A DNA stretch of 50,947 nt from Elusimicrobiota bacterium (lineage in GTDB: Bacteria; Elusimicrobiota; Endomicrobiia; Endomicrobiales; JAPLKN01), in assembly GCA_026388075.1 (NCBI GenBank), contig JAPLKN010000124.1:1-50947 (forward strand). Direction: 5' to 3'. Below are positions 6,774-41,656 of the stretch, in pieces. The position numbers and the translations under genes are program-made. The notes below the pieces were generated by a model. That model did not search any database, had not been told where the DNA came from, and saw only the letters and a list, made by a program, of their open reading frames with translations. Positions within the stretch are counted from its first letter, which is position 1; each line of letters opens with the position of its first letter.

Positions 6774-7880
6774 CTAAATCTTCGGCTGGCGTTCAATAAA
6801 ATTCATCGCATCTTCCGAGCTTGACTGAATTCCCCTTATCGCAAGCTTTATCTCTTCGGGATTGGCAGAAGCCAGCAAAGCGTCTTCAAGTTTTATCTCG
6901 TTTGCTCTTAAAAGCCCGACCAGAGCCTGGTTAAATGTCTGCATTCCGTAGTACTGGCCCTGCTTCATCTGCGATAACACCTCGCTCAGCTTGCTGTCTT
7001 CAATAAGTTTTTTTATTATCCCGTTAACAACAAGAACTTCAACTGCGGGAACCCGTCCGACTCCCGATGCATGAGGGAGCAGTCTTTGTGATATTACCGC
7101 CTTAAGTGTATCGGCCAATATCAGCCTTGCCTGGTTCTGCTGGTGAGGCGGAAACAAATCTATTATTCTAGTAACTGTCTGAATAGCGTCAATCGTATGA
7201 ATTGTTGATAACACCAGATGCCCTGTTTGCGCGGCAGTTATGGCAGTTGAAACGGTTTCAAGGTCGCGCATTTCTCCGACTAAAATAACGTCAGGATCCT
7301 GTCTTACAACATTTCTCAAAGCGTCAAAATAAGTAAGAGTGTCAGTGCCAAGTTCCCTCTGGCTGAATATTGCTTTTTTGTCCGCATGCACAAACTCTAT
7401 CGGGTCTTCAATAGTTATTATGTTTGCCGAATGAGTAGAATTGATATGGTCAATCATTGAAGCAAGCGTTGTTGATTTTCCGCAGCCGGTTGTTCCTGTA
7501 ACTAGCACAAGGCCCCGTCTATTTTCCGAAATTTTTTCAATGGCCTGCGGCAATTTAAGATCTTTCAAGTTCGGTATATTTGAAGGAATATAGCGGAAAG
7601 CCATATTCACCATTCCTCTTTGTGTAAAAGCATTAATTCTGAACCGTCCCAGATCATTGAAGTTTAAAGCCATGTCAACTTCGTGCCGTACCCTGAATAT
7701 GCTTTTTCTCTCTTCGTTCATAAGGCTTTGCGCAATTGCGCTGGTTTCATCTGCCGAAAAAGTTTTATTAAGAGATATCAGCTCGCCGTCTATTCGCAGA
7801 TAAGACGGGCCGTTAGCCCTTATGTGTAAATCTGAAGCCTTTTTGTTTCTCAACTCTTGAAGCAGAGGCAGTATTTCCAT
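6774..7880 (-). CDS. pilT: Type IV pilus twitching motility ATPase PilT
   Basis: A 368-residue hexameric retraction ATPase acting on the cytoplasmic face of the type IV pilus machine. In order: an N-terminal PAS-like domain (1-110), Walker A GTTGCGKST near 130, the Asp box ITIEDPIEF near 155, Walker B DPDVILVGEMRD near 194, and the His box TGHLVLSTIHT near 222. Length and motif order are typical of PilT rather than PilB. No other pilus gene is nearby. It sits after ftsZ in the same direction but is separated by 385 bp holding a triple inverted-repeat array, so it is probably transcribed separately. Confidence 0.95.
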   Translation of the reverse strand: MEILPLLQELRNKKASDLHIRANGPSYLRIDGELISLNKTFSADETSAIAQSLMNEERKSIFRVRHEVDMALNFNDLGRFRINAFTQRGMVNMAFRYIPSNIPNLKDLKLPQAIEKISENRRGLVLVTGTTGCGKSTTLASMIDHINSTHSANIITIEDPIEFVHADKKAIFSQRELGTDTLTYFDALRNVVRQDPDVILVGEMRDLETVSTAITAAQTGHLVLSTIHTIDAIQTVTRIIDLFPPHQQNQARLILADTLKAVISQRLLPHASGVGRVPAVEVLVVNGIIKKLIEDSKLSEVLSQMKQGQYYGMQTFNQALVGLLRANEIKLEDALLASANPEEIKLAIRGIQSSSEDAMNFIERQPKI

Positions 7881-7893
7881 TTTTTTCCCCTTT

Positions 7894-8237
7894 ACCCCGT
7901 TAGAAATAGCCTAACGTTTGTTTATTTAAAAACTGCGAAAAAGCAGAATTTTACTAATCTATACAGTTGTTACTTCTTCTTATGTCTCTCTATTTCTAAC
8001 GGGGTGAACCCCATCACAAATAGCCTAACGTTTGTTTATTTAAAAAAACTACGAAAAAGCGAACTTTACTAATCTGTACAGTTGTTACTTCTTCTTACGT
8101 CTCTCTATTTCTAACGGGGTGAACCCCATCACAATAGCCTAACGTTTGTTTGTTGAAAAAATTGCGAAAAAGACGCAATTTGCCAATCTAAGTAGTTTTA
8201 TCACTTCTTCTTATCGTTTTACTGTTTCTAACGGGGT
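7894..8237. repeat. Array of three ~113 bp elements with terminal inverted repeats
   Basis: Three head-to-tail copies: 7894-8005, 8008-8120 and 8123-8237. Copy 1 has a perfect 16 bp terminal inverted repeat, ACCCCGTTAGAAATAG / CTATTTCTAACGGGGT. In copies 2 and 3 the left arm has drifted to ACCCCATCAC while the right arm stays. The cores are clearly homologous (CCTAACGTTTGTTTATT, GCGAAAAAG, GTTACTTCTTCTTA). The left arm can also pair locally (CGTTAG/CTAACG), giving alternative hairpins. The array fills the gap between the ftsZ stop and the pilT start. The same family, in the other orientation, is at 35580-35800. There is no spacer pattern or cas gene, so this is not CRISPR. Confidence 0.9.
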
Positions 8238-8265
8238 GAACCCCGTAGATTATCTTTATGTAAAC

Positions 8266-9333
8266 TTATTTTAATTTCTGTATATTCCAGTTTAGATATG
8301 CCGGCTTATTTACGTCTATGGGATTTTCTCCCTTAGTTACCTGCGGCTTAGTTGTGTGAGCCCTGATTCCTCTGCGCGCAGGAAATCCCGTGGCAATTAC
8401 CGTAATTTTGATTTTATCTCCGTAATTGGGATCTATAACCTGCCCGTAAAATACGTGGGCCCTGGGAGAACCGGCATCTTTAATAAGATTTATTGCGTCT
8501 TGAACCTCAAAAAGCGAAATATTGTTTGATCCTGTGATATTTATCAGTATTCCTTTCGCCCCGTCAATAGAAACATCGTCCAGCAAAGGGCTGTTTATAG
8601 CTTTTTGAGCCGCGTCCATCGCTCTTGTAGGGCCGGAACTTTCCCCAATACCCATCAGGGCTTCACCGGCTCCCTGCATAATAGTCCGCACATCGGCAAA
8701 ATCAACATTAATCTCACCGGTCTGGTTTATAACATCAGTAATGGATTGAACCGCCTGCCTTAAAACATCGTCAACTGTCCTGAATGCATCAGTAACAGGG
8801 GTCTTGTCATCAATTATTTTAAATATTTTCTGATTGGGAATGACGACAAGCGTATCGGTAAAATTCCTTATGTTTCTTATTCCTTCCTCTGCCTGCTGCA
8901 ACCTTATTATTCCTTCAAAATCAAAAGGTTTTGTCACCACGCCTACCGTCAATATTCCTAAAGAACGCGCGATAGAAGCTACAACGGGTGCCGCTCCTGT
9001 TCCCGTTCCGCCTCCCATACCCGCGGTAACAAAAACCATCTGAGTTCCTTCAAGCATTCCTTTTATGCGTTCCCTGCTTTCCTCAGCAGATTTTTGCCCT
9101 AAGGAAGGATTTCCCCCTACTCCCAATCCTTGAGAAATCATCTCCCCTATTTGAACGCGCACCGGCGCCTTAGATATTCTAAGCGCCTGCACGTCGGTAT
9201 TCATTGCAATAAACTCAACACCGTTTAAGCCCGCTTCTATCATTCTATTCACTGCGTTTGAGCCTCCGCCGCCCACGCCTAACACTTTTATGCTTGCCGG
9301 CCCTGAGTATTTTGGATGAGTGATTTTAGCCAT
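8266..9333 (-). CDS. ftsZ: Cell division protein FtsZ
   Basis: A 355-residue tubulin-like GTPase that forms the division ring. The GTP-binding signature GMGGGTGTGAAPV is near residue 105, with the N-terminal VLGVGGGGSNAVNRM and the synergy-loop region NVDFADVRTIM near 208. The globular core ends near 315, leaving a tail of only about 40 residues ending KPAYLNWNIQKLK, in place of the long linker and D-x-P-x-F-L peptide common elsewhere. The ATG lies 2 bp after the ftsA stop, so the two are cotranscribed. The inverted-repeat array starts 29 bp beyond its stop. Confidence 0.97.
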   Translation of the reverse strand: MAKITHPKYSGPASIKVLGVGGGGSNAVNRMIEAGLNGVEFIAMNTDVQALRISKAPVRVQIGEMISQGLGVGGNPSLGQKSAEESRERIKGMLEGTQMVFVTAGMGGGTGTGAAPVVASIARSLGILTVGVVTKPFDFEGIIRLQQAEEGIRNIRNFTDTLVVIPNQKIFKIIDDKTPVTDAFRTVDDVLRQAVQSITDVINQTGEINVDFADVRTIMQGAGEALMGIGESSGPTRAMDAAQKAINSPLLDDVSIDGAKGILINITGSNNISLFEVQDAINLIKDAGSPRAHVFYGQVIDPNYGDKIKITVIATGFPARRGIRAHTTKPQVTKGENPIDVNKPAYLNWNIQKLK

Positions 9334-34572: not shown

Positions 34573-35589
34573 TTGATTATCTGGCTTGCAAGAATACTTA
34601 TTCTTTTAGCAGGGCCTACAATAGCCTATTTCCAGGTTTCTAAAACACTTAACGCCGCTTTGATTGGTTTTACCCTTTCATTGATAATTATTATAGTTGA
34701 ACTGGTTATACAATCAATCCCTCTGGATACACTGATTATCGGAATCCTAGGCATCGTGCTTGGCTTAATTATAGCCAAACTTCTTGATTACACAATTTAT
34801 CTTACTGAAAACCAGAAACTCTATGAAATTGTAAGAGATTTTAACCTTGTAATTAAAATCATTTTTGCTTACTTAGGCCTAGTGATAGCAGTTCACAAAA
34901 AAAGCGAACTAGACCTCTTAGACAGAGATATTTTCAAAAAAGGCGCGCGAAAAAGATCCACCGACGTAATTATTCTTGACACAAGCGCTGTTATTGACGG
35001 TAGAATAGCCGATATTGCTGAAACAAAATTTATATCCGCAGTCTTAGTTCTTCCCCGTTTTGTTTTGGAAGAACTTCAGAAACTTGCCGATTCATCGGAT
35101 AACCATAAAAGGATGCGCGCAAGAAGAGGCCTTGATATTATTGCACAGCTTCAAAAAATGGAAGAAGTGACCGTAAAAATATTTGACAAAGACTATCCTG
35201 AGATAAAAGAAGTTGATAAAAAATTATTGCTTTTAGGCAAGGACCTCCAGGCAAAAATAGTTACCACTGATTTTAACCTTAATAAAATTGCAACTCTTCA
35301 GGGTGTTACCGTTTTAAACATTAATGATCTTTCTAATTCGTTAAAACCTGTATATCTTCCCGGCGAAACCATGATGATTTTTCCGGTTAAGGAAGGAAAA
35401 GAGCAGAAACAGGCTGTAGGGTATTTGGATGACGGGACAATGGTCGTCATAGAAGACGGAAGAAGATATATAGGAAAACGAATTGAAGTAACCGTATCAT
35501 CAATTCTGCAGACTTCGTCAGGCCGCATGGTGTTTACCCATCCTGCAAGCGAATCCAACAAAGACTATTCAAACGGTTCACCCCGTTAG
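34573..35589 (+). CDS. Membrane protein with PIN and TRAM domains (YacL family)
   Basis: About four membrane helices fill the first 110 residues, then a PIN nuclease-fold domain (IILDTSAVIDGRIADIAE, VLPRFVLEELQKLAD, IVTTDFNLNKIA) with the conserved acidic residues, and a C-terminal TRAM domain (DDGTMVVIEDGRRYIGKRIE). YacL-type proteins are probable RNases or RNA binders of unsettled role. I prefer the TTG at 34573 because GGAG lies 8 bases upstream; a GTG at 34564 is the alternative. The last three codons and the stop (S-P-R-stop) are supplied by the terminal repeat of the adjacent inverted-repeat element. Confidence 0.88.
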   Translation: MIIWLARILILLAGPTIAYFQVSKTLNAALIGFTLSLIIIIVELVIQSIPLDTLIIGILGIVLGLIIAKLLDYTIYLTENQKLYEIVRDFNLVIKIIFAYLGLVIAVHKKSELDLLDRDIFKKGARKRSTDVIILDTSAVIDGRIADIAETKFISAVLVLPRFVLEELQKLADSSDNHKRMRARRGLDIIAQLQKMEEVTVKIFDKDYPEIKEVDKKLLLLGKDLQAKIVTTDFNLNKIATLQGVTVLNINDLSNSLKPVYLPGETMMIFPVKEGKEQKQAVGYLDDGTMVVIEDGRRYIGKRIEVTVSSILQTSSGRMVFTHPASESNKDYSNGSPR

Positions 35590-35800
35590 AAATAGTTAGA
35601 TTATTAAAAGAGTCATCAACGAAAGATATTGTAAATAATATTTTTTAATAAATTCATAAATTAGTAAAAGTTAAGCTATTTCTGGGGTACACCCCGTTAG
35701 AAATAGTTAGACTATAAGTAGAATTATCAACTAAAGATATTGTAAATAAATTTTTCATAATTTCATAAATTAACTAAAGTTAGGCTATTTCTAACGGGGT
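35580..35800. repeat. Two tandem ~110 bp elements with terminal inverted repeats
   Basis: Copy 35580-35688 and copy 35691-35800 share ends ACCCCGTTAGAAATAG / CTATTTCTAACGGGGT; the ends of the second copy are a perfect 16 bp pair, and the first has lost AAC in its right arm. The cores are alike (AAAGATATTGTAAATAA, TTTCATAAATTA) and align with the reverse complement of the ftsZ-pilT copies (GA-ATAAG-AGAA-TA-CAACT, and GTTAGG before the right end). The first left arm forms the stop of the PIN/TRAM gene and the last right arm ends 8 bases before the ispD ATG, where its GGGGT may serve as a weak ribosome site. Confidence 0.9.
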
Positions 35801-40691: not shown

Positions 40692-40763
40692 GCCGACGTA
40701 GCTCAGTGGTAGAGCAGCGGTTTTGTAAACCGCTGGTCGGAGGTTCAAGTCCTCTCGTCGGCT
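40692..40763 (+). tRNA. tRNA-Thr (anticodon TGT)
   Basis: The 72-base sequence folds as a cloverleaf: acceptor GCCGACG/CGTCGGC, D arm GCTC...GAGC, anticodon stem GCGGT/ACCGC with loop TTTGTAA (anticodon TGT), and T arm GGAGG-TTCAAGT-CCTCT. G1-C72 and C2-G71 fit threonine identity. CCA is not encoded; the discriminator T begins a T7 tract (40763-40769), which with the acceptor stem may serve as terminator. Confidence 0.96.
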
Positions 40764-41550: not shown

Positions 41551-41656
41551 ACCCCGTTAGAGAAATAAAAGCTAATTAAAAAAGAAAAAAGTTTTCTTCT
41601 TTTAGAAATATTAATATAAATTTTAAATCCTAATCGGCAGCATTCTCTAACGGGGT
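41551..41656. repeat. Single 106 bp element with terminal inverted repeat
   Basis: The ends ACCCCGTTAGAGAA / TTCTCTAACGGGGT are a perfect 14 bp pair and clearly belong to the family seen after ftsZ and before ispD, but with GAGAA for GAAATAG. The core differs and has its own A-rich/T-rich hairpin (AAAAAGAAAAAAG / TTTTCTTCTTTT). It lies 59 bp upstream of dnaE. Confidence 0.85.

Follow-up and report, generated by a model that had tools for sequence, protein, structure and literature searches.

A probable MITE-like mobile palindrome between ftsZ and pilT in an Elusimicrobiota genome, and copies with the same ends in other phyla

In an Elusimicrobiota bacterium, the gap between ftsZ and pilT is filled with a row of inverted repeats. 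Is this a hairpin that serves the message of the two genes, or a piece of DNA that came in from elsewhere? The window, i.e., the whole stretch of DNA that was analysed (50,947 nucleotides), holds the array at 7895-8236 as three tandem units of about 115 bp each. Tandem Repeats Finder places it at 7904-8244, with a period of 115, 3.0 copies and a score of 474, and the inverted ends of the units are also recovered by a repeat finder. The array is real and not a product of chance. The neighbouring genes were named by NCBIfam profiles, with scores over the curated cut-offs (Table 1). As both of them lie on the minus strand, the RNA is the reverse complement of the strand shown.

A preliminary description of this DNA had proposed units of about 113 bp with inverted ends of 16 bp. 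The tandem units and their inverted ends were observed again, with inner left ends that are altered and with limits that had to be redrawn. The unit boundaries were set by the duplicated flanks found at other copies; unit 1 thus runs from 7895 to 8004, and the transposition ends are CCCC and GGGG. All three units keep an intact right end, TCTAACGGGG, while the left end, CCCCGTTAGA, is intact in unit 1 only; units 2 and 3 carry CCCCATCACAA in place of CCCCGTTAGAA. Neighbouring ends do abut as described, with a third GGGGTGAACCCC junction at 8233-8244 after unit 3. The flanks of the array as a whole are unmatched, being TTTA on the left and TGAA on the right. Inner left ends have changed in the same manner at L042 and L065, which are further tandem arrays of the genome. 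In the three arrays compared, the pairs lost at the inner ends can mostly still form as G.U on one RNA strand, and at the ftsZ-pilT array and L065 this is the transcribed strand of the flanking genes.

Table 1. Coordinates of the array, its neighbours and related elements (positions in the window, save for the last row, which names other loci)
Feature	Position	Strand	Remarks
pilT (PilT/PilU family ATPase)	6774..7880	-	start codon 14 bp from array
Target-site 4-mer TTTA, left of array	7891..7894	.	YWWR target type
Unit 1, family A, 110 bp	7895..8004	.	10-bp ends both intact: CCCCGTTAGA ... TCTAACGGGG; fold z -5.9
Junction GGGGTGAACCCC, units 1/2	8001..8012	.	read from sequence
Unit 2	8009..8119	.	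left end altered to CCCCATCACAA; right end intact
Junction GGGGTGAACCCC, units 2/3	8116..8127	.	read from sequence
Unit 3	8124..8236	.	left end altered to CCCCATCACAA; right end intact
Probable left-end remnant of a fourth unit, CCCCGTAGATTATC	8241..8254	.	read from sequence
ftsZ	8266..9333	-	stop codon 29 bp from array
Second family A locus, two tandem units	35581..35799	.	ispD-like ORF (name from sequence) starts ~9 bp downstream
Third locus, single element, 104 bp	41552..41655	.	ends CCCCGTTAGAGAA ... TTCTCTAACGGGG; between divergent ORFs
tRNA-carrying elements	L314 1644-1750; L301 1956-2268; L099 1140-1248; L156 3579-3686; L370 1501-1619; L369		

The search for end pairs, advised at the outset, was carried out over the whole genome and revealed dispersed copies. 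The 13-mer end, with at most one mismatch, occurs 149 times in the 2.14-Mb genome as against 7 times for the reversed pattern. The exact pair CCCCGTTAGA N63-93 TCTAACGGGG occurs 43 times, and the reversed control not at all; as the ends in this pattern are fixed at 10 bp, the variation of the ends is underestimated. Nearly every end pairs, left with right, with a partner 81-131 bp away. At least three interior families share the same ends: A (108-113 bp), to which the array belongs, B (82-84 bp) and C (mostly 110 bp). Family C has up to three internal hairpins, and copies of family B occur nested within it. Within this element family, the array between ftsZ and pilT is an ordinary insertion site among others. 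It is neither found only here nor a degenerate coding region, two possibilities which the preliminary description had itself raised. In the window, the first unit at 35581 gives the upstream ORF its stop with its left end (CCC CGT TAG); at 35575-35607, the last codons of that ORF (NGSPR) and the stop come from the element. Rfam models run against the window did not match the element, their sole match being a tRNA at 40692-40763.

The bases around the copies suggest how they came to their places. An exact 4-bp duplication directly outside CCCC and GGGG was found at 108 of 206 non-redundant exact pairs, whereas 20.1 were expected with shuffled flanks (maximum of 500 shuffles: 31). Identical 4-mers flank the element directly in 20 of 48 own copies and 46 of 80 foreign ones; a 5-bp flank repeat was seen neither in these copies nor in the 206 pairs. 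Inverted instead of direct flanks were seen in 10 of the 80, and an exact duplication is missing at about half of the copies. Short units of 29-65 bp can be duplicated at their flanks as well. The consensus of the duplicated site is symmetric, G^YWWR^C, where ^ marks its borders. Its first position is T (0.90) or C (0.10) and its fourth A (0.90) or G (0.10), the middle two being A/T-rich; the base before the site is G and the base after it is C, each at 0.50. The exact duplication and the symmetric consensus together indicate insertion of the copies through a staggered cut of 4 bp. Further, a fixed stagger with a symmetric target points to a transposase, perhaps of the DDE type. Hairpin loops in general are not the target, as the stem around duplicated sites was 2.15 compared with 2.13 in shuffles. 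When gene adjacency was compared, ftsZ and pilT were neighbours without the element in five relatives of the same order, which would fit a recent insertion in the lineage of this genome.

The array very probably represents family A of a mobile palindrome that is MITE-like and non-autonomous and was inserted in trans with a 4-bp duplication. It shows features of a MITE, namely terminal inverted repeats, a fixed-length 4-bp duplication, dispersed copies and no gene of its own. According to the proposed mechanism, the functional ends would be the 10-bp terminal inverted repeats CCCCGTTAGA and TCTAACGGGG. A trans-acting enzyme, putatively a DDE transposase, would cut outside CCCC and GGGG and link the element to target DNA opened at G^YWWR^C with a stagger of 4 bp, whereby, judging from the flanks, the target 4-mer would be duplicated. 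Any interior of roughly 30-130 bp could travel in this way. The interiors would diverge into genome-specific families, some of which may move between phyla, and the insertions would survive mainly in short intergenic gaps or in frame inside genes. At the present locus, one unit may have landed at TTTA just upstream of pilT, after which the array would have grown by tandem duplication. The inner left ends would then have changed mostly by G.U-tolerant substitutions, such that the palindrome was broken in the DNA while the pairing in the ftsZ-pilT RNA was presumably kept.

The element is by no means limited to one genome. A search of 84,980 species genomes with the pair pattern gave at least 115 stretches, where about 7 would be expected by chance in the whole 257 Gb. 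The same ten-letter ends are present in uncultivated bacteria of at least nine phyla. Carriers among the matches listed include Omnitrophota, many Patescibacteria, Planctomycetota (including Brocadiaceae), WOR-3/Stahlbacteria and Deltaproteobacteria, along with Nitrospirae, Cloacimonadota, Spirochaetia, Elusimicrobia and one Clostridia bin. Each of the 50 foreign genomes from which the first loci came holds pairs, 1-27 in number, with none in the control. The distribution in the own phylum is patchy, with exact pairs in 9 of 294 sampled genomes (43, 21, 6, 5, 3, 2, 2, 1 and 1). The interiors are mostly unrelated between genomes, 94 of 183 elements being singletons. Family C of the own genome is 72-75% identical to Deltaproteobacterial copies over 111-113 bp, and 82% identical over the element to copies from within its phylum, in a genome that belongs to another family. 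One interior family found across phyla at 72-82% identity argues for horizontal spread. Carriage by phages was considered and rejected: the forms of about 83-113 bp and 114-144 bp are absent from IMG/VR viral contigs, and those of 55-80 bp occur in only six, two of which were checked by eye for a transposase ORF. Neither the end as an element nor the in-frame peptides described below were found in the open-licence papers searched.

Could the element be a local product of a known insertion sequence? IS1380 has CC ends and a target duplication of 4-5 bp, both of which the element recalls. An ordinary MITE, derived from a resident IS of a known DDE family that the searches missed and with no wider system behind it, is possible but rather unlikely; terminal inverted repeats, a duplication of fixed length and the lack of genes are the standard anatomy of such elements (PMC10969869, PMC2229807). 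The transposase search proposed in the preliminary description was run, and the Y1_Tnp, IS1380, DDE_Tnp_1 and IS701 domains do not track the carriers. The IS1380 transposase (PF13701) passed the cut-off in 0 of 16 carriers. DDE_Tnp_1 (PF01609) was found in 7 of 20 carriers and is absent from eight of nine Patescibacteria carriers, and the IS701-type DDE_5 (PF13546) is present in 1 of 20 genomes. Derivation from IS1380, from IS4/IS5/IS1634-type (DDE_Tnp_1) elements or from IS701 was rejected on these grounds. As MAGs are incomplete, a single missing gene says little, and repeated absence in small genomes says more. It also speaks against a local derivative that identical 10-bp ends in at least nine phyla would be unusual for one. 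An autonomous copy was not found either, as none of the long end-to-end spans in the examined loci consists of one unit that holds a transposase ORF; the long spans are pairs of mini-elements (L167 was inspected). In three Patescibacteria genomes, a mutated partner was seen at a distance of about 100 bp from several ends that had seemed unpaired. No gene family was found to recur beside the elements.

The hairpin itself raises the second alternative, that a conserved regulatory or terminator hairpin is kept by selection at transcript ends, for example as an ftsZ-pilT attenuator. The fold is indeed very stable, unit 1 reaching -33.4 kcal/mol on the sense strand and -29.8 kcal/mol on the other (z about -5.9). 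Short tandem gaps are favoured, the changes at the inner ends are G.U-tolerant on the sense strand, and two terminator-like sites lie at the array, but on the plus strand. However, the relatives lack the element at ftsZ-pilT, exact pairs are found in just the 9 of 294 genomes noted above, and the element duplicates target DNA and sits inside reading frames. Such a regulatory role as the reason for the element is, therefore, improbable. The preliminary description had also foreseen a triple hairpin tail on ftsZ transcripts. A strong hairpin array is predicted (z = -6.9 for the whole array), but not as three independent hairpins, since the minimum-energy structure pairs the outer ends of units 1 and 3. 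A switch between a long and a short hairpin, suggested there as well, is not supported as a conserved feature: the long form reaches -29.8 to -33.4 kcal/mol, the short one -4.7. The internal pairing CGTTAG/CTAACG on which it was based is possible in unit 1, whereas units 2 and 3 and the family-A consensus have no internal partner. The outer stem of family A does not covary more than shuffles do, save for a C-G/U-A exchange at one pair. In the internal helix of family C, 7 cells are changed on both sides compared with 3.4 by shuffling, and its hairpin co-varies as GGAGG/CCTCC, GGCGG/CCGCC and GGTGG/CCACC (CG/UA/AU); as the rows are related, this is suggestive and not proof. Thus, it is certain that the element forms a hairpin, whereas a selected RNA function is not certain. 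The local effect of the array is probably small, that of a hairpin spacer in the ftsZ-pilT message.

The places where the mobile palindrome is tolerated were tallied relative to gene ends, as had been advised, and are mostly short gaps between genes. The 56 clusters in the examined parts of the own genome comprise 31 in tandem gaps, 6 in divergent and 4 in convergent ones, 9 in genes and 6 at edges. Same-direction gaps that hold the element often leave just 1-30 bp spare. About 72% of random positions in the examined loci fall inside long ORFs; set against the few copies in genes, this indicates that insertions in genes are mostly lost. Those that persist are read in frame. In QueC (7-cyano-7-deazaguanine synthase), the insert takes up residues 85-122 inside a profile match of 7-248; in the glycine cleavage T protein, residues 131-168 inside a GCV_T match of 6-292; and in MnmE, residues 367-404. 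In-frame copies are also present in a UvrD/AddA-like helicase and an outer-membrane efflux protein, and in other genomes the profiles of RNase R and NAD kinase continue around the insert. As the in-frame test partly selects for in-frame copies, the intact profiles were relied upon and no count of frames is given. The candidates for out-of-frame copies resemble gene borders or spurious ORFs. Removal of in-gene copies by RNA splicing was dismissed as needless, since the copies are read in frame. Eight of the nine single in-gene copies classified in the own genome belong to family C. At least one frame is always open in this family, while family A is open in 5 of 23. The survival of family C inside genes would be explained by its openness and its length of 110 bp, which with the 4 bp makes 38 codons. 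Each end brings a stop codon in one frame (CGT TAG, TAA CGG). At L097 (6918-7021) and L162 (6072-6289), elements lie in frame right before prepilin-type N-terminal helices (SLTG^FTLVELL and SLTG^FSLLELL, ^ marking the border), and the inserted TTTA/TGAA site lies at the prepilin cleavage region.

REP/REPIN-type repeats, mobilised by the IS200-like tyrosine transposase RAYT (PF01797), resemble the element in their paired palindromes of about 100 bp and their intergenic preference, and Y1_Tnp matches occur in 12 of 16 carriers. That the array belongs to this class is quite improbable, nevertheless. REP/REPIN carry a GTAG tag at each hairpin foot, while the element ends in CCCC/GGGG, has no GTAG or CGTC tag, and a single end is not a hairpin by itself. 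RAYT chemistry would not be expected to duplicate a variable 4-mer. Four of the 16 carriers, with 8-16 copies each, have no Y1_Tnp match. Among 30 Y1_Tnp loci fetched, an end pair was seen in two only, neither flanking the gene on both sides; RAYT was, therefore, rejected as the mobiliser. RAYT-like genes flanked by other terminal inverted repeats have been described (PMC3733652). The own genome has 15 IS200-like Y1_Tnp genes of the RAYT type, which is many for 2.1 Mb. An artefact of metagenome assembly or binning, suggested by the fact that all 115 named genome matches listed are MAGs, is extremely improbable given independent projects, many contigs per genome, interior families that differ per genome, target duplications, and in-frame junctions inside QueC, GcvT and MnmE.

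Among known systems, the closest in behaviour are the Rickettsia palindromic elements (RPEs) and their Wolbachia relatives. RPEs are palindromes of about 100-150 bp with several interior families, located between genes and in frame in conserved proteins. Insertion into genes is limited to some of the families, neither a mobilising enzyme nor a target duplication is on record for them, and those of R. conorii end in CGTC (PMC2229807, PMC10969869, PMC3733652). The present element shares the palindrome size, the several interior families and the in-frame insertions. It is a MITE-like palindrome that behaves like RPEs but is not one by its ends or host. In contrast to the R. conorii RPEs, the ends here are CCCCGTTAGA; the 4-bp YWWR duplication is clear, and at least nine phyla are involved instead of one genus. 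Neither the CGTC tag nor the RPE consensus was found in it, and no Rickettsiales are among the named matches listed. Bacterial MITEs such as Correia/NEMIS, RUP, ERIC and MITEAba12 are likewise short, without a gene, and have terminal inverted repeats, target duplications and AT-rich targets. They are confined to a genus or family, many with TA at the ends, unlike the single 10-bp end found here across phyla, around interiors that are unrelated to one another and in some cases are whole tRNA genes. Integron attC sites also have short conserved inverted cores, GTTAGA/TCTAAC, around a variable interior. The cores of the element are similar but reversed in orientation, and target DNA is duplicated. 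The element stands out by ends that are identical from phylum to phylum and by a target that is well defined.

A broader reading, offered tentatively and with somewhat less than an even chance, is that all these copies belong to one undescribed, horizontally spreading system in at least nine phyla. Its enzyme, outside the transposase families tested, would read the roughly 10 bp of CCCCGTTAGA, cut G^YWWR^C with a 4-bp stagger, and mobilise almost any short DNA, including intact tRNA genes that nest and enter the anticodon loops of other tRNAs. If the explanation as a MITE-like palindrome is right, the same class of mobile hairpin is present in many MAGs, among them those of Patescibacteria, Omnitrophota, Planctomycetota and Desulfobacterota, and would mark DNA exchange between subsurface phyla. 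Peptides of 29 or 38 residues (PVR...SNGV, TPLE...SLTG) would be added to conserved enzymes, and stop codons supplied at gene ends; for annotators, recurrent peptides of this kind in MAG proteins would be transposon footprints. With exact ends, a target consensus and a duplication in hand, the movement of protein-coding palindromes like those of Rickettsia would become testable.

Some foreign elements enclose a complete tRNA gene (Val-CAC, Ala-CGC or Met-CAT). In all six loci listed in Table 1, the unit lies in the anticodon loop of a second tRNA gene, directly behind TTCA, and in L369 and L301, tRNA-carrying units are nested several deep. Removal of the element and four bases restores a tRNA-Glu(TTC) with a 7-base loop in L099, L156 and L301. 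These three are not plain duplications, as the right flank is CRRG and not TTCA. Mobile tRNA cassettes and intron-like insertions are the candidate readings of such units. Likely intact copies of tRNA-Glu(TTC) were found in several carriers with a pattern that misses some forms of it.

Other repeats were met along the way. Short inverted-repeat elements with the ends AGACTGTGTCATAA and GAGGCTGTTGC, a different MITE set of the same genome, are nested inside the family at L056 (4947-5147), L038 (6119-6460) and L063 (6559-6948). At L050 (13956-14381), a stretch of 426 bp between CCCCGTTAGA and TCTAACGGGG contains a 5S rRNA gene along with partial 5S-like repeats; this pair adjoins a 23S rRNA gene, and its flanking 4-mers are unmatched. 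The window also has a strong inverted repeat at 890-982 (CTTGATTACACGGATTTTTAACTTCGATTACACAGAT and its partner, 81% complementary) that is unrelated to the family. Lastly, long direct repeats of 74-99% identity are found in it at 46313-47071/49344-50081 and 19361-19879/22102-22623, and are probably duplicated genes or gene segments.
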